Shown here in pieces: positions 14,181 through 64,000 of a stretch of DNA of 64,000 nucleotides (position 1 is its first letter; the number at the start of each line of letters is the position of its first letter). The notes under the pieces were generated by a model. That model was not told the DNA's origin. It did not search any database and saw only the letters and a list, made by a program, of their open reading frames with translations. This stretch comes from Neofamilia massiliensis (lineage in GTDB: Bacteria; Bacillota; Clostridia; Tissierellales; Peptoniphilaceae): NCBI RefSeq assembly GCF_001299475.1, contig NZ_CYUJ01000003.1, positions 562,409 to 626,408 of the forward strand. The letters run 5' to 3'. The translations under genes and the position numbers were made by a program.

Positions 14181-15779
14181 TTACTTTTCTTCCTTGTAAT
14201 ACTTGTCAATATAATCTTCATAAGAAATTTCTTCGTCCCTATAAGTTCCGTCTTCAAATATTTCAATTATTCTGTTGGCAACTGTAAAGATAATTTGAGT
14301 GTCGTGGGAAGTAAATAAAATATTTCCCTTGTAGGCCTCCAGCCCCTTGTTGACAGCTTCAATTGATTCAAGGTCTAAGTGGTTAGTAAGTTGGTCGAAG
14401 ATTAAAAGGTTTGATGGCTCAACCATCATCTTTAAAAACATCATCCTAACTCTTTCTCCTCCAGAAAGAACACTTGCCTTTTTTAAAGCCTCATCTCCTG
14501 AAAAAAGCATCTTTCCAAGATAGCCTCTCATTTCAATTTCAGATTGCTCTTCTGAATACTGTCTCATCCAGTCAATTAAGTTTAGGTCAATGTCTTTAAA
14601 AAATTCGTTATTGTCCTTGGGAAAGTAGTCCTTGGTTATTGTTTGGCCAAATTTAAAGGACCCTTCATAGTCGTCTGTATTTCCATTTATAACTTCAAAA
14701 AACTTTGTTATAGCTAGGTCATTGCCTATAAAGGCGATTTTGTCATTTTTGTTTACTATAAAGGACATAGAGTCAATTAATTTTTTGTCGCCATCTTTTA
14801 GACTTAGGTTTTCTACAATTAAAATATCGTTACCTGGCTCTCTTGAAAGTGGAAAGCCGACGAAAGGATACCTTCTAGTTGATGGTTTAATGTCATCTAA
14901 GGTGATTTTTTCTAGAAGTTTTCTCCTTGATGTTGCCTGTCTGGCCTTGGACTTATTTGCTGAGAACCTGGCAATAAAGTCTTTAAGTTCCTTGGCCTTT
15001 TCTTCCTTTTTCTTGTTTTGTTCCTTGGCCATTTTTAAGGCGAGCTGAGATGACTCATACCAAAAATCGTAGTTGCCAACGAAGAGAGAAATTTTTCCAT
15101 AGTCTACGTCAACTGTCATTGTACAAACTTCATTTAAAAAGTACCTGTCATGAGATACAACTATTACAATGCCAGGAAAGTCCATTAAAAAATCTTGCAG
15201 CCAAAGGACTGCTTTAATATCTAATCCGTTAGTAGGCTCGTCTAAAAGTAAAATATCTGGACTGTCAAAAAGAGCTTGGGCAAGTAAAACTTTAATTTTG
15301 TCTGCCTCTTTTAAGTCTGCCATTAACATATAGTGTTTGGAAATATCAACGCCTAGGCCTTGTAAAAGTGTTGCCGCTTCTGCTTCAGCTTCATAGCCTC
15401 CCATTTCTGCAAAATCTGCCTCTAGTTGGGCTGCCTTCATGCCGTCTTCGTCTGAGAAATCTGCCTTCATATAGATGGCTTCCTTTTCCTTGCTAATGTC
15501 ATAAAGTTTTTTGTTGCCCATTATTACAACGTCTAAGACTACTTGGTTTTCAAAGGCATAGTGGTCTTGGTTTAATTTAGACATACGGGCATTTTTGTCC
15601 ATGGTTACTGATCCCTTGGTCGGTTCTTTTTCACCTGCAAGGATTTTTAAAAAAGTTGTCTTTCCTGCTCCATTGGCTCCTATAATTCCATAGCAGTTGC
15701 CTGGACTAAAAACTAAGTCTACATCTTCAAATAGTTTTTTGTCTGGAAAGATCATAGAAACATTGTTTACTTGTAACAT
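14181..15779 (-). CDS. ABC-F family ATPase with one degenerate nucleotide site
   Basis: 532 residues, two ABC domains joined by a helical linker, no membrane segments: an ABC-F protein of the YbiT/YkpA type, which binds ribosomes. Domain 1 has a normal Walker A (GANGAGKTT, about 34-42) and Walker B (LLLDEPTNGLD), but its signature reads LKEAD instead of LSGGQ. Domain 2 has a good LSGGE signature, but its Walker A reads GNDLAITKF without the GK[ST] and its Walker B reads FDQLTNHLD, with Gln for the catalytic Glu. In the folded protein all three lost motifs fall in the same ATP site, leaving one consensus site. It is a single-gene unit with its own terminator. Confidence 0.9.
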   Translation of the reverse strand: MLQVNNVSMIFPDKKLFEDVDLVFSPGNCYGIIGANGAGKTTFLKILAGEKEPTKGSVTMDKNARMSKLNQDHYAFENQVVLDVVIMGNKKLYDISKEKEAIYMKADFSDEDGMKAAQLEADFAEMGGYEAEAEAATLLQGLGVDISKHYMLMADLKEADKIKVLLAQALFDSPDILLLDEPTNGLDIKAVLWLQDFLMDFPGIVIVVSHDRYFLNEVCTMTVDVDYGKISLFVGNYDFWYESSQLALKMAKEQNKKKEEKAKELKDFIARFSANKSKARQATSRRKLLEKITLDDIKPSTRRYPFVGFPLSREPGNDILIVENLSLKDGDKKLIDSMSFIVNKNDKIAFIGNDLAITKFFEVINGNTDDYEGSFKFGQTITKDYFPKDNNEFFKDIDLNLIDWMRQYSEEQSEIEMRGYLGKMLFSGDEALKKASVLSGGERVRMMFLKMMVEPSNLLIFDQLTNHLDLESIEAVNKGLEAYKGNILFTSHDTQIIFTVANRIIEIFEDGTYRDEEISYEDYIDKYYKEEK

Positions 15780-54670: not shown

Positions 54671-55939
54671 TTATACGCCAATTTTTATATTAAAGAGGAT
54701 CTTGTAAAGCCTGTAAAAGATAAAGCCCATTACTGCGCAAATTGGAATATTTATAAAATTTGGAATGTCGTAGAAGTTATCAATAATTTGTCCAAAGACA
54801 CTTAGGGTTGTCACTACTGCCATAAAAAAGGCAAAGTTAGATACTGATTTTTTCAAAATCAACATGCCAGATCTTTCAGCCTTACTAGTATTGGCCCAAA
54901 AAAGTCCTAGGACAAAGATAATTATTGTAAAAAATAAAAATCCTGCCATCATTAAAGGTTTACTATAATCTAAACCTTCAGCTGGCAAATATAAAGGATA
55001 GAAAACTGTGTCTCTAACCTTATCGTCTAAGATAAAAACAAAATCTCTATTTGTAACATCAAGGCCTACAATACTTCTTAGCATTACATAATTTTCTACA
55101 AGAAGTTTTGGTCCGCCTAGGCCAATAATCATCATACCCAAATGGCCAAAAATATTTCCAGCAACTGTTCCCAATCCTATAACAACTATATAGAACATGG
55201 CATTTCTTCCTAGGCCTAAAAGTATATCTGACCAAAAACCGTTAGTTGTTAACAAGTTAGACAAATATGAAGTCTTCCACATTAAAATCCCAAAGCCCAT
55301 ATTAATTACATATGCCAGACTTGTTAAAAGCAAACCTAGGCCGATTTTAAATAAATAGTTCTGAGTCTTTGACCAAGGAAGCATTCTAGTAAATTCATAA
55401 AATGGAGTAAAGTGTTCCATAGAAGTAAATAAAAATCCTAAGACCAAAGAAAAAATCAGCGGTGTAAAAAATGATGCTGCTAGCTGCTTGCCTAAAATGA
55501 TTTTGCCTTGTTCAATGCCACCATAGCTAGACATATAATTATAAATATCAACTTTTTCATCAGTATATCTAATATCCTTATAATCATTTAAATAATAATA
55601 GGCCTGGTCCTTTAAATCCATATCAGCTGTGTTGGCATAAACTTTCATTGCCTTCTTATAGTAGTTGTCATACTCGGCAAATAAATCTTTTGGAAGCTTG
55701 TCAGGATATTTTTCCTTAATTAACTTCAGAGATTTTTCAAAATTATAATCATTGGAAAAACTTTCTTCTTTTGCAGTTTTTTCTAGGCCAACTAAGGCAT
55801 AGGCATAATTATTTGTGTAATTTTCAATTCTAGAATTTGCAGTAAAAAAGCTAACAATGATAACAAAGACCAAGGTTAAAGTTAACCAAAAACCATTTCT
55901 CTTTAAAAGTAATTTTGCGGCCTTTTTAAAGTCTTTCAT
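54671..55939 (-). CDS. ABC-2 type exporter permease, first copy
   Basis: About 422 residues, with the same layout as the following paralogue. Helix 1 at about 16-36, an extracellular domain of about 110 residues, then the helix bundle with YEFTRMLPWSKTQNYLFKIG. ATG 55939 has AGAAGGAC upstream and overlaps the end of the ATPase gene by 14 bases. Third gene of the GntR-ATPase-permease-permease operon, as in YtrA-type systems that export peptides, antibiotics or envelope-stress compounds. Confidence 0.8.
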   Translation of the reverse strand: MKDFKKAAKLLLKRNGFWLTLTLVFVIIVSFFTANSRIENYTNNYAYALVGLEKTAKEESFSNDYNFEKSLKLIKEKYPDKLPKDLFAEYDNYYKKAMKVYANTADMDLKDQAYYYLNDYKDIRYTDEKVDIYNYMSSYGGIEQGKIILGKQLAASFFTPLIFSLVLGFLFTSMEHFTPFYEFTRMLPWSKTQNYLFKIGLGLLLTSLAYVINMGFGILMWKTSYLSNLLTTNGFWSDILLGLGRNAMFYIVVIGLGTVAGNIFGHLGMMIIGLGGPKLLVENYVMLRSIVGLDVTNRDFVFILDDKVRDTVFYPLYLPAEGLDYSKPLMMAGFLFFTIIIFVLGLFWANTSKAERSGMLILKKSVSNFAFFMAVVTTLSVFGQIIDNFYDIPNFINIPICAVMGFIFYRLYKILFNIKIGV

Positions 55940-56807
55940 TGTCCTTCTCCCTTCCTCTTTCAAAATAAAATCTATCTTCTATTTGTAGGGGCAAAATATC
56001 AAATTGAACAATTTCTTCCCTGGCTAGTTCTCTAACAACTTCCTCTTCCTTGCCTGGAAGTAAAATTGTATAGACCCTGCCTAGGTGGTTTTTCAAAATC
56101 GCCTGGTCTAAGATGTCCTTAGGAAGTTTTTCTTTAACAACAACTTGAACCTTTTGGAAACTTGCATCCTTAGACTTATCAACTCCTTGGATCTTTCCGT
56201 CAAGACCAAGATAGAAAACTTCGTCAGCAATTCCTTGCAGCTCTTGGAGTTGGTGGGTTGAAATTAAAACGCACCTGCCATCTTGGCTGGCATCAAGTAG
56301 GTATTTAATAATTGCCTCCTTGTTTAAAACGTCAAGGCCATCTAAAGTTTCATCTACAAGGAGAAAGTCTGCCTTGGTTGCTAAAACCATTAAGAGGCCA
56401 ATTAGGGTTTTGTTGCCCTTTGATTGGGCCTTAATATTTTTCTTTAAATCTAATTTTAATTTTTCCGCCTCGTGTAAGACATAAGCCCTGTCAAAGTTTG
56501 GATAAATTGTCTCATAATATTCCATGGCCTTTAAGGCAGAAACATAAGAAAAAAAATCAAACCTGTCTGGCAGATAGGCAATGCTCTTAGCAAGGCTTGG
56601 TTCTGCAACATAGTCTCTCATATCAATAGTAGTTTCTCCCTTGTCAGAATCTAGGACTCTGGCTAATATTTTTAAAAGGGTAGTCTTTCCTGCCCCGTTT
56701 CTTCCAACAAGACCATAGATCTTCCCAGTGTTTAAAGTAAAAGATATATCATCTAGAACAATTTTTCCGTCAAAGGACTTAGAAATATTTTTTCCTTCAA
56801 GTATCAT
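55926..56807 (-). CDS. ABC transporter ATP-binding protein (YtrB/BcrA type)
   Basis: 293 residues. Walker A GRNGAGKTT, a signature changed to AQSKGNKTLIGLLMVLA (LSGGQ replaced by QSKGN), Walker B FLLVDETLDGLD, and a H-loop STHQLQEL. The changed signature is common in the YtrB/EcsA-like group. It partners the two permeases. Its start overlaps the GntR gene stop by 4 bases (ATGA). Confidence 0.88.
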   Translation of the reverse strand: MILEGKNISKSFDGKIVLDDISFTLNTGKIYGLVGRNGAGKTTLLKILARVLDSDKGETTIDMRDYVAEPSLAKSIAYLPDRFDFFSYVSALKAMEYYETIYPNFDRAYVLHEAEKLKLDLKKNIKAQSKGNKTLIGLLMVLATKADFLLVDETLDGLDVLNKEAIIKYLLDASQDGRCVLISTHQLQELQGIADEVFYLGLDGKIQGVDKSKDASFQKVQVVVKEKLPKDILDQAILKNHLGRVYTILLPGKEEEVVRELAREEIVQFDILPLQIEDRFYFERGREKDNERL

Positions 56808-57172
56808 TTTTGGTCCTCCTTAATTTTTTTATAAAGTTCATTAATTTCATCTAGAGAAATATTGAAAAATTCACATTGGAGAAAAAGTTCACTGAGTTTT
56901 TCAATAAGTTTTTCTCTTTCCCATTCCATCTTTTTGTCGTCGAGACTAATAAAAGTTCCCTTGCCGACAACAGTTTGTATTAGGCCCAAACTTTCCATTT
57001 CCTTGTAAGCCCTAGTTATAGTAGAAGTATTTACTAAAAGGTCCTTGGCCATATCTCTAACAGATGGCAGTTGGTCGCCGTCTTGGAGATAACCCTTGGC
57101 AATAGATAATTTAGTTTGGTCAACAATTTGCTGATAGATGGGATCCTTACTTGCATAATCTAATTTATACAC
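56804..57172 (-). CDS. GntR-family regulator, YtrA type (GTG start)
   Basis: 122 residues: N-terminal winged helix (PIYQQIVDQTKLSIAKGYLQ, QLPSVRDMAKDLLVNTSTI, TRAYKEMESLGLIQTVVGKG) and a short C-terminal dimer helix pair, the YtrA subfamily size. The start is GTG, with AAGGAGG upstream. It is first in the operon it most likely represses; a near-perfect inverted repeat at 57187-57211 is the candidate operator. Confidence 0.9.
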   Translation of the reverse strand: MYKLDYASKDPIYQQIVDQTKLSIAKGYLQDGDQLPSVRDMAKDLLVNTSTITRAYKEMESLGLIQTVVGKGTFISLDDKKMEWEREKLIEKLSELFLQCEFFNISLDEINELYKKIKEDQK

Positions 57173-57441: not shown

Positions 57442-57470
57442 TTGACAAGAGATAAGAATTTTTGTATTAT
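57442..57470 (+). promoter_or_regulatory. Strong promoter of the structured RNA candidate
   Basis: TTGACA (57442-57447), 17 bases, TATTAT (57465-57470). Perfect -35 and 5 of 6 in the -10. Transcription would begin near 57477, inside an intergenic stretch with no reading frame. Confidence 0.75.
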
Positions 57471-57476
57471 ATAGAA

Positions 57477-57596
57477 GAACGATATAGGAAATCGTTAACT
57501 AACTGTAAGCGATTTCATTTAGTCTGTACACAGACAACAATTAATTTTCTCCCTAAAAATTAACGACAAAGAAGGAGCCTGAAGGCTTCTTTTTTG
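57477..57596 (+). ncRNA. Candidate structured RNA (small RNA or riboswitch leader)
   Basis: About 120 bases between a strong promoter and a terminator. Pairings in order: AACGAT (57478-57483) with ATCGTT (57491-57496); or, instead, GAAATCG (57488-57494) with CGATTTC (57510-57516). These two share bases and cannot form together. Next come GTCTG (57522-57526) / CAGAC (57531-57535) with loop TACA, TTAATTTT (57541-57548) / AAAATTAA (57556-57563) with loop CTCCCTA, and a terminator at 57568-57595. I recognise no riboswitch class. No open frame or ribosome site lies inside. The next gene, DUF1177, begins 190 bases later. Confidence 0.5.
57568..57595 (+). terminator. Terminator at the end of the RNA candidate
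   Basis: AGAAG (57570-57574) / CTTCT (57586-57590), with an inner CC/GG pair closing a TGAA tetraloop and a three-base bulge, followed by T6. The downstream AGGGAG (57603-57608) could pair with CTCCCT (57549-57554) as an alternative. Confidence 0.65.
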
Positions 57597-57679
57597 ATGG
57601 CAGGGAGTTTTTTTATTTTTAAATTTGTTTTATTTTATTTTATGATAAGTCATAATTCTTATATTGTAATTCTATGATT

Positions 57680-57707
57680 AGACCTATATAAATATAGGTC
57701 TTTTCTT
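57680..57707 (+). terminator. Hairpin terminator or attenuator before the DUF1177 operon
   Basis: Perfect 9-bp stem AGACCTATA (57680-57688) / TATAGGTCT (57693-57701), tetraloop TAAA, then a T-rich tail. It lies 83 bases before the DUF1177 start. The bases 57597-57679 and 57708-57789 hold no gene. A weak promoter (TTGATA 57717-57722, TGCAAT 57741-57746) may restart transcription. Confidence 0.72.
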
Positions 57708-57789
57708 TATATCATATTGATACAAAGTCTTTTATGTTATTGCAATAGCTAAATACACTATCTATATTTATTTTTTATTAGGAGGAGAA

Positions 57790-58734
57790 ATGTTATTAAA
57801 AGAAATCGTTGAAATTTATAATTTACTTGATAGTTCCGAAGTAACTGGGTATGACATCAAATCATATTTAAGTAATATTAGTAATAAAAACGTTGATATC
57901 AACGTTCATACATTAAAGGTAGAAAAAGGAAGTACCGATTTTGTTAGAATTACAATTCCAGGTACGAACGGAAAGATCAATGGCGGAAACGCTCCTACTC
58001 TTGGAGTATTAGGAAGACTTGGAGGAATTGGTGCTAGACCGGAAGTTACTGGATTTGTTTCAGATGGCGATGGAGCCTTGGCAGTATTAGCAGTTGCTGC
58101 AAAAATACTAAACATGAATAGCAAGGGCGACTTATTAAAAGGAGATGTTGTTATTTCAACCCACATATGTCCAGATGCTCCTACTATTCCTCATAATCCA
58201 GTTCCTTTTATGGATTCCCCTGTAGACATGGCAACTATGAATTCAGAAGAAGTTAAAGGAAATCTTGATGCTATTATTTCAGTTGATACAACAAAAGGTA
58301 ATAGAATTATAAATCATAATGGGTTCGCCATATCTCCTACGGTAAAAGATGGTTTTATATTAAAAGTTTCAGAGGATTTATTAGATATCATGGAAAGAAC
58401 AACAGGAAAGTTACCTAAAGTCCTTCCTATTACAAACCAAGATATTACCCCTTATGGAAATAATATTCACCATATTAACAGCATTATGCAACCATCCACT
58501 GCTACTAGTTCACCTGTAGTTGGTGTAGCAATAACTACTGAATCCATTGTAGCAGGGTGTGCAACTGGTGCTACCAACCCCTATGATGTGGAGCAAGCAG
58601 CTAGATATGTTTTAGAAGTTTGTAAAGATTTTGGAGAAGGTAAAGTATCTTTTTATGATGAAACTGAATGGGACATTATAAAAAAACGATACGGAGATTT
58701 AAAAATATTGCAAACTCTTGGAAATAACATTTAA
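57790..58734 (+). CDS. DUF1177 family protein
   Basis: 314 residues. The sequence matches DUF1177: VRITIPGTNGKINGG, LGRLGGIGARPEVTGFVSDG, ISTHICPDAPTIPHNPVPFM and FAISPTVKDGF. The family is uncharacterised; genes for it tend to lie with transporters and with hydantoin/Asp-Glu racemase or AroM-like proteins, as here. The His/Asp/Cys-rich HICPDAP block suggests a metal or active site. First gene of a three-gene operon with the NCS1 permease and amidohydrolase. GGAGGAG precedes the ATG. Codon use is more A/T-rich than in genes left of 57 kb. Confidence 0.85.
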   Translation: MLLKEIVEIYNLLDSSEVTGYDIKSYLSNISNKNVDINVHTLKVEKGSTDFVRITIPGTNGKINGGNAPTLGVLGRLGGIGARPEVTGFVSDGDGALAVLAVAAKILNMNSKGDLLKGDVVISTHICPDAPTIPHNPVPFMDSPVDMATMNSEEVKGNLDAIISVDTTKGNRIINHNGFAISPTVKDGFILKVSEDLLDIMERTTGKLPKVLPITNQDITPYGNNIHHINSIMQPSTATSSPVVGVAITTESIVAGCATGATNPYDVEQAARYVLEVCKDFGEGKVSFYDETEWDIIKKRYGDLKILQTLGNNI

Positions 58735-58761
58735 AAATAAATATTTAAAGGAGGTAAGATT

Positions 58762-60000
58762 GTGAAAGAAAATAATATTGGATACTCCATAAAGAGAGTT
58801 GAAGATCATGAAAGAGTAGGTTGGAAGGCACCATTGTTTAATATATTGGGTAGCAATGTAGCAATCTCTGAATTGATGGTTGGAGGAGCCCTTGTTGCTG
58901 GGATGACTTTTAAACAATTGATAGCGACTTCGATAATAGGAAACTTAATGCTAGTGTTCATTCTAATATTACAAGGTAATATAGGAATGAGAGAAGGCTT
59001 AGATACCTACTCCCTTGCAGAAAGTACTTTTGGATTGAAAGGCGGTAAGTGGATCATATCATTAATATTGGCAGTTACTAGTTTTGGATGGTTTGGGGTG
59101 CAAGCTGGTGTAGCAGGGTTATCTCTACTTAGGATTTTCCCAAATTTAAATTTGACTATTTCTGTAATAGTATTAGGTCTACTAATGATGTGTTTTGCAG
59201 TCTTAGGTTTTAGTGCAATGGCAAAATTCAATTATCTAGCAGTTCCTCCACTAATTATTATGATGATATGGGGAATGTTTAAGGCATTAAGTGCTAATGG
59301 ATTTGAATCTATTTTATCGTATACACCAGCATCTCAAATGACAATTGTTGAGGGACTTAATATAGTAATTGGTGTTGTAATTGTTGGAACAATTATCTCA
59401 CCTGACCAACTTAGATATACAAGAAGCTTAAATGACATAGTAATTATATCTGTAATAGGATTTGCTTTGATATCTCTTTTTCAGCAAGTATCTGCAGGTG
59501 TCTTGGCAATGGATTCACCGTCTTGGGATATAACTGAGGTTTTAGAAAATCTTGGATTTAATTGGGTTGCTTTTCTTATATTATTATTAGCAGCCTGGTC
59601 AACTAATGTATCTAATGCATACTCAGGTGGACTTGCATTAAATACAGTTTTTCCTAACATGAAAAGAGAAACTCTTACAATAATTGCAGGTTTAATTGGA
59701 ACAGCTATTGCTGCAAGTGGAATAATATTTAAATTTCAAGAATTTCTTGGTTTGCTTAGCATGACAATATCTGGAATAGCAGGAGTAATGTGGGTAGACT
59801 ATTATATATTAAATAAAAAATCATTGAACTTTAAAGAAGGAACTAACGTTGTTGCTGTATTAAGCTGGATAGCAGCATTTGTTGTTTCATTTTTAACTGA
59901 TAGATATGGTATTTTCATACCACCTATAAACGCAATAATTGTGGGAGGACTGTTATATTATTTATTAATGTCAATTAAAGAAAGGATAAAAAATGACTAG
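58762..60000 (+). CDS. NCS1-family permease (cytosine/purine/hydantoin type, CodB-like; GTG start)
   Basis: 412 residues, twelve helices. NILGSNVAISELMVGGALVA at the start, TSFGWFGVQAGVAG in helix 3 and the YSGGLALNTVFP block fit the NCS1 (NSS-fold) nucleobase-cation symporters, whose members import cytosine, allantoin or hydantoins. The start is GTG after GGAGG. Eight-base overlap with the amidohydrolase gene makes them a translationally linked pair, so the permease likely brings in the substrate of the hydrolase. Confidence 0.88.
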   Translation: MKENNIGYSIKRVEDHERVGWKAPLFNILGSNVAISELMVGGALVAGMTFKQLIATSIIGNLMLVFILILQGNIGMREGLDTYSLAESTFGLKGGKWIISLILAVTSFGWFGVQAGVAGLSLLRIFPNLNLTISVIVLGLLMMCFAVLGFSAMAKFNYLAVPPLIIMMIWGMFKALSANGFESILSYTPASQMTIVEGLNIVIGVVIVGTIISPDQLRYTRSLNDIVIISVIGFALISLFQQVSAGVLAMDSPSWDITEVLENLGFNWVAFLILLLAAWSTNVSNAYSGGLALNTVFPNMKRETLTIIAGLIGTAIAASGIIFKFQEFLGLLSMTISGIAGVMWVDYYILNKKSLNFKEGTNVVAVLSWIAAFVVSFLTDRYGIFIPPINAIIVGGLLYYLLMSIKERIKND

Positions 60001-60814
60001 AGAAGTAAATATTGGAATTATTCAATTTGAATCAGTATTAGGAGATGTTGAGGCTAATGTCTCTAAAGCAGTTCAATTAATAGAAGAAGCAGCAAAAAAA
60101 GGGGCAAATATAGTTGTTTTACCTGAACTATTTGCAACAGGATACAATTTAGAAATTTTACAAGAAAGAATAGCTGAGTTGAGTATTGAGTATTTTAACT
60201 ATACCTATGATTCTATGGCAGCTGCTGCTAAAGAAAATAACGTATATTTAATCGCCTCTTTTGGTGAAGTTAGAGAAGTTCCTGGAATAGTATATAATTC
60301 TGCCATCGTTTTTGATGATGAAGGGGAAAAAATGGGCAGTTTCGCAAAAAGTCATCTTTGGTTTAGAGATAGACTCTATTTTAAAGAAGGAAATGACTAT
60401 CCTGTATTTGAAACAAAATATGGAAAATTTGGAATTGCAATATGTTATGATATGGGATTTCCTGAAACATTTAGATCTTTAATGTTACAAGGGGCAGAAA
60501 TGATATTTGTACCTGCCGCTTGGAGAATAGAAGACGAAGATATGTGGAATATGAATATTCCACAAAGATCTCTTGAGAATATTTTATTTACTATAGGTGT
60601 AAATAGATATGGTATTGAAGATAATCTTCATATGTTTGGCAGATCTATGGTGGCTAATCCAAGAGGAAAGATTATCCATGAATTACCTAAAGATAAAGAG
60701 GCTGTTGAGGTGGTAAAAATTGACTTGGATGAGGTAGACAAGTATAGAACTCAAATATCTTATTTAAGAGATAGAAAACCACACATATATGGGAAATTGA
60801 CTGAAATTAAATAA
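59993..60814 (+). CDS. Nitrilase-superfamily carbon-nitrogen hydrolase
   Basis: 273 residues. The catalytic triad is visible: Glu in VLPELFATGYN (about 43), Lys in AKSHLWFRD (about 120), Cys in AICYDMGFPETFR (about 154). The family includes omega-amidases, N-carbamoyl amino acid hydrolases and beta-ureidopropionase. With the NCS1 permease and a hydantoin-type racemase nearby, an N-carbamoyl or amide substrate is likely. The pocket residues do not settle which. Confidence 0.88.
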   Translation: MTREVNIGIIQFESVLGDVEANVSKAVQLIEEAAKKGANIVVLPELFATGYNLEILQERIAELSIEYFNYTYDSMAAAAKENNVYLIASFGEVREVPGIVYNSAIVFDDEGEKMGSFAKSHLWFRDRLYFKEGNDYPVFETKYGKFGIAICYDMGFPETFRSLMLQGAEMIFVPAAWRIEDEDMWNMNIPQRSLENILFTIGVNRYGIEDNLHMFGRSMVANPRGKIIHELPKDKEAVEVVKIDLDEVDKYRTQISYLRDRKPHIYGKLTEIK

Positions 60815-60827
60815 AAGCATTTTGATT

Positions 60828-60868
60828 AAAGCTTAGCTTTTTTAATTCTTATTAGAAAGCTAAGCTTT
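60828..60868. terminator. Long inverted repeat between amidohydrolase and pucR
   Basis: Perfect 13-bp stem AAAGCTTAGCTTT (60828-60840) / AAAGCTAAGCTTT (60856-60868), 15-base loop. It stands between two convergent genes and, despite lacking long outer T-runs, probably ends both. Confidence 0.7.
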
Positions 60869-60893
60869 AATAGTATCATTTTATAAATAATCT

Positions 60894-62321
60894 TTATAGG
60901 ATATCTGAAATTTCTTTTGATAAAATTAAAAGCATAAGATCTTTGCTATTTTCAAAACAATAGCCTGTTAATTCTTCTATTTTATTTAATCTATATCTTA
61001 ATGTTTCAACATGTACATGAAGTTCTTTTGCCGTATCTTTTCTAATCATATTATTTGATATAAATGAACAAAAAGTAAGATATAGCTCAGTGTTGTGTTC
61101 ATGATCGTACACTTTAATCTTGTCAACTATATCATTAACAACTTCCTTCCCATTCATAGTATCTGCTAAATCAAATATTATCTTTTCCTTAGGGAAATCT
61201 TCAATAAAGTATATTGTCCTTTTGTCCGTTTTTGAAATTTTTTCAGCCTCATCTAACGATAAATTAATTTCTTTCAAATCTTTTTTTAGATATGATACTC
61301 CAATTTGTAGATACTTATTTTCTGGATCTAATTTTTTTATTAGATTAAAAAGAATATTTTGTAACTTATTTCTTTCAATATGGCAAAATATTGCCATCCC
61401 ATCATTATAAGTATTAAATAAAAAATAGCTATTCAATTTAAACTCTAAAAATTTTCTTATGTCTGAATTAGCTACTATTTTTTCATCTTGCCTAAAATAA
61501 ACACAATAAAATTCTGAACTTTTCCAATTTAAATTAAAAATTACACTATCTAGAAAACTTTGACTATGATTTTGATTTTGAAGTAAAATGTTTGTAATTA
61601 TCCTATGATTCTGACTGATATTATAAAGAAATGTTTGTTCCAAATACAATTTGTTTTTAATTAATGAGATAGCATAAGTTATACAATTATTTTGAAAGTC
61701 ATTAAGTTGAACTTCTTTTTCTAGATAAATATATCCCAAATTCTCAGTTGTATTAATTGGCAAATAAAGAAAGTTACTTTGTTCATTGTCCAAAAATCTC
61801 GTATACCTAACTTCCTCACCTATCAAATTAGTTACTTCTTCCAAAATTTTTTCTAGTCTTATGTTTTTAGAGTTTAAGTTTAACAATTTATTATATGCCA
61901 AGTTTTGCTCTATGAGGTTATTTGTCTTTATATTAAAAAGAAACTCATAGAAGTTTCCAACAATTTTAGAATAAGTTGTCTCTTTTCTCAATATAATTAA
62001 AGGAATACCATATTTATCAGCATCGTTTAATAAATTATTATCTATTTCTCCAAAATATCTACCTATTTTTATACATATTGCAGCTACTTTGTGTTCGTAT
62101 GCACTCTTAATAAATTCAGACTTATACTTTTTCTCATTGATGAATGCATATCCTGCTGTTAAAACTATCTCATTTCCCTGAAACCAGCTTACTCCATCTG
62201 GTGTTTCTAAGACTACAACATCTTTCGCTTTGTTTTTCAAGCCGTTCATACCCGCTACTAAATTGCAATCCCCAAAGCACTCATTTTCTAATAAATCCTT
62301 TATTGTAATGTAATCTCTCAT
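60894..62321 (-). CDS. PucR-family transcriptional regulator
   Basis: 475 residues. The N-terminal PucR domain (about 8-125; YITIKDLLENECFGDCNLVAG) is followed by a GGDEF-like/CdaR-type middle region and the C-terminal HTH_30 helix-turn-helix (LHVHVETLRYRLNKIEELTG). PucR-type proteins activate purine, allantoin or related nitrogen-compound use. It is convergent with the permease-hydrolase operon and so is its probable regulator. Low-GC codon use (AAT, ATA, TTA) matches the island. Confidence 0.88.
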   Translation of the reverse strand: MRDYITIKDLLENECFGDCNLVAGMNGLKNKAKDVVVLETPDGVSWFQGNEIVLTAGYAFINEKKYKSEFIKSAYEHKVAAICIKIGRYFGEIDNNLLNDADKYGIPLIILRKETTYSKIVGNFYEFLFNIKTNNLIEQNLAYNKLLNLNSKNIRLEKILEEVTNLIGEEVRYTRFLDNEQSNFLYLPINTTENLGYIYLEKEVQLNDFQNNCITYAISLIKNKLYLEQTFLYNISQNHRIITNILLQNQNHSQSFLDSVIFNLNWKSSEFYCVYFRQDEKIVANSDIRKFLEFKLNSYFLFNTYNDGMAIFCHIERNKLQNILFNLIKKLDPENKYLQIGVSYLKKDLKEINLSLDEAEKISKTDKRTIYFIEDFPKEKIIFDLADTMNGKEVVNDIVDKIKVYDHEHNTELYLTFCSFISNNMIRKDTAKELHVHVETLRYRLNKIEELTGYCFENSKDLMLLILSKEISDIL

Positions 62322-62573
62322 TTTTCCCTTTCTTATTTTATAAAAATTGTAGTAGTTTTATTAATATACTAAACAGTTATCTTGCTTTAAGTTTTAAGCC
62401 TTTAAAGCTTGTTATTTTAAACTTCTAAGTTTAAATAGTAAATAAATTTTTAGAATGTTAAATTTTGTTTCTTTTTAAATACTTCTTTCCTATTTATTTC
62501 TCTTGTCTTCTCTTATAATTAAAAAACTTCACCTAGTCTTATATTTTTACAATTTTTCTGCCTAAACTTTATA

Positions 62574-62960
62574 AGGTTTATGTGCTGGTATCTCTAACAA
62601 AATATGGCTGTGGTCTATAAATAATTCTGCTTATGTTATTTTTGTCCCTTTATAGTCAGCAAGTCTCGTAAGATTTTTCCTATATCTGTTTTTTTCTTCC
62701 ATAAATAATTTACCATCTATATTTTGGTGCAAATACTATATGATATTTTCAATTCCATTTTTTATGTGATAAACTATTATTATCCACGTGGATAACCCCT
62801 CTCATTTAATTAGATCGATAGATAAATCTATTTTAACATGATTGAAGTTTTTTTGCTTAAATCTAAAGTAATCATTCACCAACATAGGTTGGTAAACCCA
62901 CAATGAAAATTACCCAGACATTGCCGTCTGAGCCACTTATTAGTCCTTGTTTTTCTTAAT
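62574..62960 (-). mobile_element. Decayed IS200/IS605-type element with transposase remnant
   Basis: On the minus strand from 62777 down, one frame reads SLSHKKWN-stop-KYHIVFAPKYRW-stop, which is the start of a TnpA Y1 transposase with two stops. After a frameshift the next frame gives ADYKGTKIT-stop-AELFIDHSHILLEI, including the HUH-like HSH that carries the metal site. The match ends near 62574, so the rest of TnpA is lost. Upstream hairpins ACCAAC/GTTGGT (62878-62893) and CAGAC/GTCTG (62915-62930), and the palindrome TTATCCACGTGGATAA (62780-62795), look like the left end. 62322-62573 holds nothing I recognise. Confidence 0.75.
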
Positions 62961-63034
62961 CAACACTATTTATTAAATAGACTAATTTAATATCATGTTC
63001 TATAGTCCAATTAAAGCTTTCCCTACTAAAATAA

Positions 63035-63697
63035 TTACTTTATATTATAGAATGAATTTCTTAGGCATACTGCATTTGCAAATACAGCCTCAGCATATAC
63101 ACAATCTACTACTGGAAGCCCAATCTCTTTTTCAATAATTGGAGCAAATCTCGTTGTAGACAAACCAGTACATGCGAAAACTAAAACTTCAGCACCTTTG
63201 TTTTTTAAATTTTCACAATGAGCTAGAACTTTATCTAGTCCATAGCTTTTCATAAGATCGGTAGTATTATTTATATTAGGTATAAAAGGTTCACCAATAA
63301 CATCTTTTCCTATATACTTTACATATGATTTTGGTAGGTTTCTTGTTATACCAACTATGCCTACTTTATTACCATAAATTTTACTAAGTAAAGCCGCACT
63401 TTCTCCTGCACCTATTATTGGTATACTCATTACATTTCTAAGTTCTTCTAAAGCTGGATCTCCTGCACAAGAAACTATTATTACATCTTTATTTGAAAAT
63501 TTGTTTTTAGCAAGATCAATAATTTTTGCTTTCGCTATTTCTTCTGTGTTATCATCATAAATTCCTTTTGGCTGGTCCTTAATCGCTAAAGATTCTACTT
63601 CCATGTTAGAAAAATTTTGTTCGATAATTCTACCATGAGAGTTAAGAATTTCATTATCTTCAGTTGACAATACTCTAATTAAACCAACTTCAAACAT
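63035..63697 (-). CDS. Hydantoin/Asp-Glu racemase-like protein
   Basis: About 220 residues, Asp/Glu/hydantoin racemase fold. The two active-site Cys lie in IIVSCAGDPAL (about 76-86) and LVFACTGLSTTRFAP (about 172-186), as expected for PLP-independent racemases. The distribution of motifs is closest to hydantoin racemase or the AroM-like group. I chose ATG 63697 with TAGGAGGTG upstream; GTG 63706 overlaps that site. It fits the neighbouring permease and amidohydrolase as a third step on a chiral cyclic substrate. Confidence 0.82.
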   Translation of the reverse strand: MFEVGLIRVLSTEDNEILNSHGRIIEQNFSNMEVESLAIKDQPKGIYDDNTEEIAKAKIIDLAKNKFSNKDVIIVSCAGDPALEELRNVMSIPIIGAGESAALLSKIYGNKVGIVGITRNLPKSYVKYIGKDVIGEPFIPNINNTTDLMKSYGLDKVLAHCENLKNKGAEVLVFACTGLSTTRFAPIIEKEIGLPVVDCVYAEAVFANAVCLRNSFYNIK

Positions 63698-63709
63698 TAT
63701 GAACACCTC

Positions 63710-63994
63710 CTATTTTTCCTTTATAATCTCATCTACCTCTACTAACAAATCTTTATCGAACATCGTAGATGCTAATTTTAAATTTTCTTTAGTTACCCCA
63801 ATTACTATTACTTCCATATCTTCTTTAATTATGTAACTTAATATAGGTTCAAATGTATACTTAAAATCAATTTTATAGTAATATATATCAGAATTAAATG
63901 AATCTAAAAAAATTACTACAGTTATACCTAAAACAAAAGAAAAGATTAAAATGCAGAAATTCTCTTTCTTTTTTCTCTTTACTCTTCTTATATT
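63710..63994 (-). pseudogene. Open frame with membrane helix but no start codon (gene fragment?)
   Basis: The frame ending at TAG 63710-63712 is open back to two TAA codons at 63995-64000, giving 94 residues: a basic start (RRVKRKKKENF), a strong membrane helix (CILIFSFVLGITVVIFL), then a polar tail with YITK-like mixed residues. It contains no ATG, GTG or TTG before Met codon 63815-63817, which would leave only 35 residues. It may be the end of a frameshifted gene running in from the right, or a degraded one. Function unknown. It sits just before the racemase gene. Confidence 0.35.
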
Positions 63995-64000
63995 TTATTA

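Follow-up and report, generated by a model that had tools for sequence, protein, structure and literature searches.

The stretch of DNA analysed, hereafter the window, comprises 64,000 nucleotides of the genome of Neofamilia massiliensis (family Peptoniphilaceae; contig NZ_CYUJ01000003.1, positions 562,409 to 626,408). Towards its end, a sigma-70 type promoter opens onto a short region that is closed by an intrinsic terminator, with a divergently oriented GntR/ABC operon on one side and a series of genes headed by DUF1177 on the other (Table 1). No start codon was found within positions 57470-57593, for which reason a protein-coding reading was rejected, and a search around the promoter returned no operator-like inverted repeat close to it.

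Table 1. Features of the small RNA gene and its surroundings (positions are those of the window)
Feature	Position	Strand	Remarks
ABC permease gene of the GntR/ABC operon	54671..55963	-	RBS stands fourth in the two-species ranking against the RNA loop; may be an additional target
Divergent gntR regulator gene, first of the GntR/ABC operon	56804..57172	-	Pfam GntR; synteny, adjoins the RNA in G097 too
Sigma-70 type promoter, TTGACA-17-TATTAT	57442..57470	+	Agrees with the consensus at 11 of 12 positions; G097 has TTGACA-17-TATCAT in the corresponding place
Small RNA, about 120 nt	57477..57598	+	5' end placed from the promoter, 3' end from the terminator; fold z -5.2; homologues in G097 and G098
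Helix A (AACGAU/AUCGUU), transient 5' hairpin	57478..57496 (57478-57483 with 57491-57496)	+	Excludes helix B
Helix B (GAAAUCG/CGAUUUC), stable 5' hairpin	57488..57516 (57488-57494 with 57510-57516)	+	In MFE and centroid folds
Hairpin 2 (GUCUG-UACA-CAGAC)	57522..57535	+	In MFE fold; shared by the three species, with loops of differing length
Hairpin 3	57541..57563	+	Proposed anti-Shine-Dalgarno seed CUCCCU (57549-57554) in the loop
Intrinsic terminator of the small RNA	57567..57596	+	13-bp stem, then U-run; in MFE fold
Cassette, best read as inserted, not part of the RNA: DUF1177, NCS1 permease, CN hydrolase, PucR, Asp/Glu racemase and genes beyond the window	57600..64000		Pfam
Hairpin of 9 perfectly paired bp and T-run, upstream of DUF1177 and outside the RNA	57680-57707

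The MFE fold of positions 57475-57600 reached -35.2 kcal/mol against -18.6 in shuffled sequences (z = -5.2, none of 200 shuffles being as good), and the homologous RNA of G097, which together with G098 makes up the two other genomes of the genus, gave a z of -4.7. The elements that the original prediction had described at this place were recovered: the strong promoter, whose TTGACA/TATCAT counterpart in G097 keeps the 17-nt spacing; the roughly 120 bases without a reading frame; the two mutually exclusive helices, both of which exist and exclude each other; and two further hairpins and a terminator, all present in the MFE fold. Helices A and B are both possible in the window's genome (G000) and in G097, where helix A has 7 bp and an A-U pair changed to G-U, while helix B is invariant between the two. 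Helix B is favoured over helix A by 6.9 kcal/mol in G000 and by only 1 kcal/mol in G097. Folding of successive prefixes gives helix A first (30 nt) and helix B later (40 nt). This fits a folding intermediate in which A would form and then be replaced by B, and the alternative helices are best read in this way and not as a ligand switch.

The most conserved piece of the RNA is the 21-nt block CAATTAATTTTCTCCCTAAAA, which forms hairpin 3 and is identical in the three species. The CUCCCU of its loop is complementary to Shine-Dalgarno-type (SD) sequence, that is, it constitutes an anti-SD motif, and it was unpaired with a p of 0.98-1.0 in the computed folds of both full-length species. With regard to covariation, which had been put forward as a sign of a genuine structure, the expectation was borne out for the terminator, the only covarying stem, kept through three two-sided changes across the three species. 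Helix B, hairpin 2 and hairpin 3 are invariant among the two full and one truncated homologues, so that covariation speaks neither for nor against them. Just behind the terminator, at 57597-57612, G000 carries AGGGAG and seven T, a sequence that G097 and G098 lack; pairing of this AGGGAG with the CUCCCU loop could form a second, back-up terminator.

The surroundings of the RNA in G097 are informative as to its relationship with the DUF1177 genes. There, the divergent gntR/ABC genes are followed by the RNA with its promoter and terminator, and then by tRNA-Cys, a HAD phosphatase and an ECF-type membrane protein. In G000 the tRNA-Cys/HAD/ECF order resumes 9.4 kb further on, after the DUF1177 cassette, with tRNA-Cys at L035:14450. 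Homology to G097 ends at L035:5008, at the RNA terminator, and restarts at 14423, the 9.4-kb cassette thus sitting precisely between the sRNA terminator and tRNA-Cys, extending to L035:14422 and being absent at that site in G097. Identity between G000 and G097 is 78-88% per 40 columns over most of the RNA and 20-55% downstream, the DNA directly behind the terminator being unrelated in the two genomes. The cassette, which also carries an acetamidase-like gene and a further permease gene, is 75-78% identical to one found in G122, a genome of another genus, and the likeness extends to the DNA immediately preceding DUF1177. This likeness and the absence of the cassette from the site in G097 suggest horizontal transfer next to a tRNA gene, and the simplest reading of the sequence comparison is that the cassette is best regarded as an insertion behind the RNA. 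Its loss in G097 is formally possible, which, if it happened, would mean that the RNA is still conserved without DUF1177.

According to the first choice of the original prediction, the region would serve the DUF1177 operon as a ligand switch or an antitermination leader. Control of the DUF1177/NCS1 genes in cis, by a riboswitch or an antiterminator, would agree with the position of the RNA upstream and on the same strand, with its alternative helices, and with the second hairpin and T-run that precede the gene. However, we consider such a role very improbable. The RNA is present in G097 without DUF1177, which was detected neither there nor in G098 (genomes 73% and 64% complete, respectively), and the cassette, best read as an insertion, brings its own upstream region, common to G122. 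Furthermore, an inspection of the seven other DUF1177 loci of the family, where a search for covarying helices had been proposed, found the RNA at none of them, and therefore no conserved position upstream of DUF1177. Helices A and B both end before the C-rich hairpin and the terminator begin, meaning that they provide neither a terminator/antiterminator switch nor an attenuator, and no alternative helix competing with the terminator or with an RBS was found (A/B at 57478-57516, terminator at 57567-57596). The second perfect hairpin with a T-run does exist as first described, yet it falls outside the RNA, has no counterpart in G097 and is not kept in front of the homologous G122 DUF1177 gene; it may represent either a terminator or an operator palindrome. 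Since the same promoter, RNA and terminator lead directly to tRNA-Cys in G097, the cassette intervening only in G000, the feature is, on comparative grounds, an independent sRNA gene conserved within the genus and not a DUF1177 leader. This corresponds to the second reading of the original prediction, which gains support from the retention of RNA, promoter and terminator in a sister species where DUF1177 does not come next. A real sRNA gene had been mis-assigned owing to its proximity to an inserted operon.

The search for homologous intergenic sequences, conducted in 130 genomes of the family, identified the counterparts in G097 (80% identity over 135 nt, E 3e-25) and in G098 (E 2e-9, cut off by a contig end), and none in the 127 other genomes. 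A covariance model scored 140, 137 and 75 bits in the three species and nothing above 38 bits elsewhere in the 130 genomes. Matches below 40 bits were rejected as homologues, as those inspected corresponded to generic terminators, often on both strands, lacking the C-rich loop block. The loop motif with 2 mismatches was likewise set aside as proof of homology, being too common in these AT-rich genomes. When the exact 19-nt block was searched in GTDB contigs, the only Firmicutes records matched were those of G097 and G098; the other matches (Pedobacter and scattered unrelated taxa) were taken as chance, and none was found in viral contigs. Judged from these comparisons and at this search sensitivity, the RNA is restricted to its genus. 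The earlier failure to match it to a known class was confirmed with the Rfam covariance models, as no family matched anywhere in the window. Scores in the RNA region were at noise level, the best being a sub-threshold 18.9 bits against a cut-off of 65, and no Rfam family (catalogued sRNAs, 6S, T-box, riboswitches) reached its gathering cut-off.

These features bear also on whether the molecule could have a housekeeping or protein-binding function, 6S-like or as a sponge for an RNA-binding protein, with the C-rich loop as a structural element. A strong conserved promoter, a compact stable fold and the GGA that helix A carries in its loop would all fit such a function, but the stable helix B sequesters this GGA, the fold lacks a long 6S-like rod, no Rfam model matches, and full invariance across the three species is confined to the C-rich loop block, so that we hold this explanation to be improbable. 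The traits that were found are instead those of C-rich-loop anti-SD sRNAs: an own promoter and intrinsic terminator without coding sequence, conserved in G097; a conserved single-stranded C-rich motif (CUCCCU, identical in the three species); and, as a prediction, trans targets with conserved RBS complementarity (sufC, sufD and sufU). From its sequence, the RNA is accordingly classed as a putative new family of that type.

A genome-wide pattern search with the complement of CUCCCU returned few sites at gene starts, and the only gene common to two species was sufC. The subsequent target comparison covered 746 genes in about 860 kb of G000 (about 45% of the genome) and 387 genes in 400 kb of G097, with gene starts called by a simple script. 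Of the RBSs of the 746 G000 genes confronted with the 14-nt loop seed, that of sufC ranked first and those of sufD and sufU held ranks 4-5; as the suf locus was placed in the sample deliberately after sufC had emerged from the motif search, only the sufD and sufU ranks are unselected. Summed over the two species, the same genes took the top three places among 185 reciprocal-best ortholog pairs (sufC -31.6, sufD -29.1 and sufU -28.9, for a mean of -15.3 and sd of 4.8), and the chance of sufD and sufU occupying the next two places, calculated by hand, is about 4 × 3/(184 × 183) = 4e-4. Against the 16S anti-SD, the three pairs were ordinary (ranks 53, 81 and 107 for sufC, sufD and sufU, respectively). 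In controls with the statistic maximised over 279 gene runs, the observed value was reached by none of 600 permuted seeds, by none of 400 seeds with another anti-SD-like core and shuffled flanks, and by 2 of 200 seeds with CUCCC in place and shuffled flanks.

The suf open reading frames were identified with Pfam as SufB/SufD core proteins, a class-V aminotransferase (SufS), a NifU-like scaffold (SufU) and an ABC ATPase (SufC). Seed energies at the sufC, sufD and sufU RBSs lie between -14.0 and -17.1 kcal/mol in both species that carry the RNA, and between -3.6 and -10.1 kcal/mol in six relatives without it, where the start of one sufD gene could not be located. For the sufC leader of G097, pairing is predicted over an unbroken run of 13-14 bases of hairpin 3 (-18.3 kcal/mol). 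The remaining genes of the operon, sufB and sufS, have ordinary SD sequences without a loop match; predicted folds of the mRNA engage part of the sufC SD in pairing, and no suf operon was detected in the approximately 64% complete genome of G098.

The same ranking offers a different possibility, namely that the RNA does act in trans through its C-rich loop but that the suf matches are coincidental, the real targets being others, for example the ABC permease, murE or molybdenum-cofactor genes, or many G-rich RBSs through a broad action. Among the 185 ortholog pairs, the ABC permease of the adjacent operon ranks 4, murE 5, and MoaB-like and MOSC-like genes 6 and 7, and a loop match of 7 nt or longer is present in 54 of 380 sampled genes. 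On the other hand, permuted seeds never placed the three best two-species matches in one operon, and relatives without the RNA lack such suf sites, which makes this possibility rather unlikely, although clearly less remote than the leader or protein-binding roles discussed above.

We think it probable, with suf as the preferred assignment, that the locus is a free-standing, genus-inherited gene of about 120 nt for a trans-acting sRNA whose loop would block SD sequences, with the sufCBDSU operon as best-supported target and reduced Fe-S biogenesis as the outcome. In the proposed mechanism, the single-stranded CUCCCU loop would pair with G-rich SD sequences and prevent ribosome loading, the operon being bound at three separate RBSs (sufC, sufD and sufU) and Fe-S cluster biogenesis being lowered without Hfq. 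The direction of the effect, repression, is one that we infer from this mechanism. Among the genomes sampled, Hfq was undetected in all 13 of the family but present in 7 of 8 from other families of the order, pointing to an apparent family-wide loss and implying, if the RNA works in trans, an Hfq-independent action. A broader proposition, which we advance tentatively and with slightly more doubt than belief, is that one lineage of anaerobic Firmicutes, apparently devoid of Hfq, may have evolved its own sRNA repressing the whole Fe-S operon, with one loop acting at 3 of 5 RBSs and with sites that co-evolved in the carriers of the RNA.

Several sRNAs of other Firmicutes are comparable. IsrR, RoxS and FsrA are described as pairing with SD sequences via single-stranded C-rich motifs, and IsrR acts without Hfq (PMC9410917, PMC10433868). 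The present RNA would resemble IsrR, the iron-sparing sRNA of Staphylococcus (PMC9410917), in single-stranded C-rich SD pairing, in Hfq-independence and in iron-sulfur-related targets (all predicted here). However, IsrR has three C-rich regions and Fur control, whereas one conserved C-rich loop is found here, and SufCDSUB is apparently not part of the IsrR regulon (PMC13343841), while suf is the top predicted target in this case. With FsrA and RoxS/RsaE of Bacillus and Staphylococcus (PMC10433868, PMC9410917), the RNA would share the use of C-rich single-stranded motifs for G-rich SDs, the binding being predicted here; FsrA is described there as requiring Fbp chaperones. Unlike these sRNAs and IsrR, the present RNA matches no Rfam model. 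RyhB acting on iscS in Escherichia coli offers (PMC6956336) the parallel of an sRNA at an SD inside a polycistronic Fe-S assembly operon (predicted here), but it belongs to a Gram-negative organism, depends on Hfq and concerns isc instead of suf, and no sequence relation between it and the present RNA was found.

If the proposed role is true, an sRNA would directly control Fe-S cluster assembly itself, and not iron-using enzymes alone, in an apparently Hfq-less family of Firmicutes, with one loop governing several cistrons of a single operon. It would also mean that an unannotated sRNA family outside Rfam comes with a concrete and testable set of targets.

Other sites related to the loop were observed in the same genomes. 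The downstream DUF1177 operon was rejected as a favoured trans target because the match of the DUF1177 SD to the loop comes only 33rd of 380; that of gntR comes 108th. The RBS of the ABC permease gene, GAAGGGAG, is complementary to the sRNA loop in both species (the G097 gene lies at L033:2031-3386). The murE-like, MoaB-like and MOSC-like gene starts, named from sequence resemblance and located at L226:3124-4654 and L235:17897-19826, are possible targets. Finally, TTTTAGGGAG, a 10-nt perfect complement of the sRNA loop, occurs at L035:14220-14260 (minus strand) in the leader of the cassette's last permease gene, where it precedes a three-codon open reading frame (MFL).
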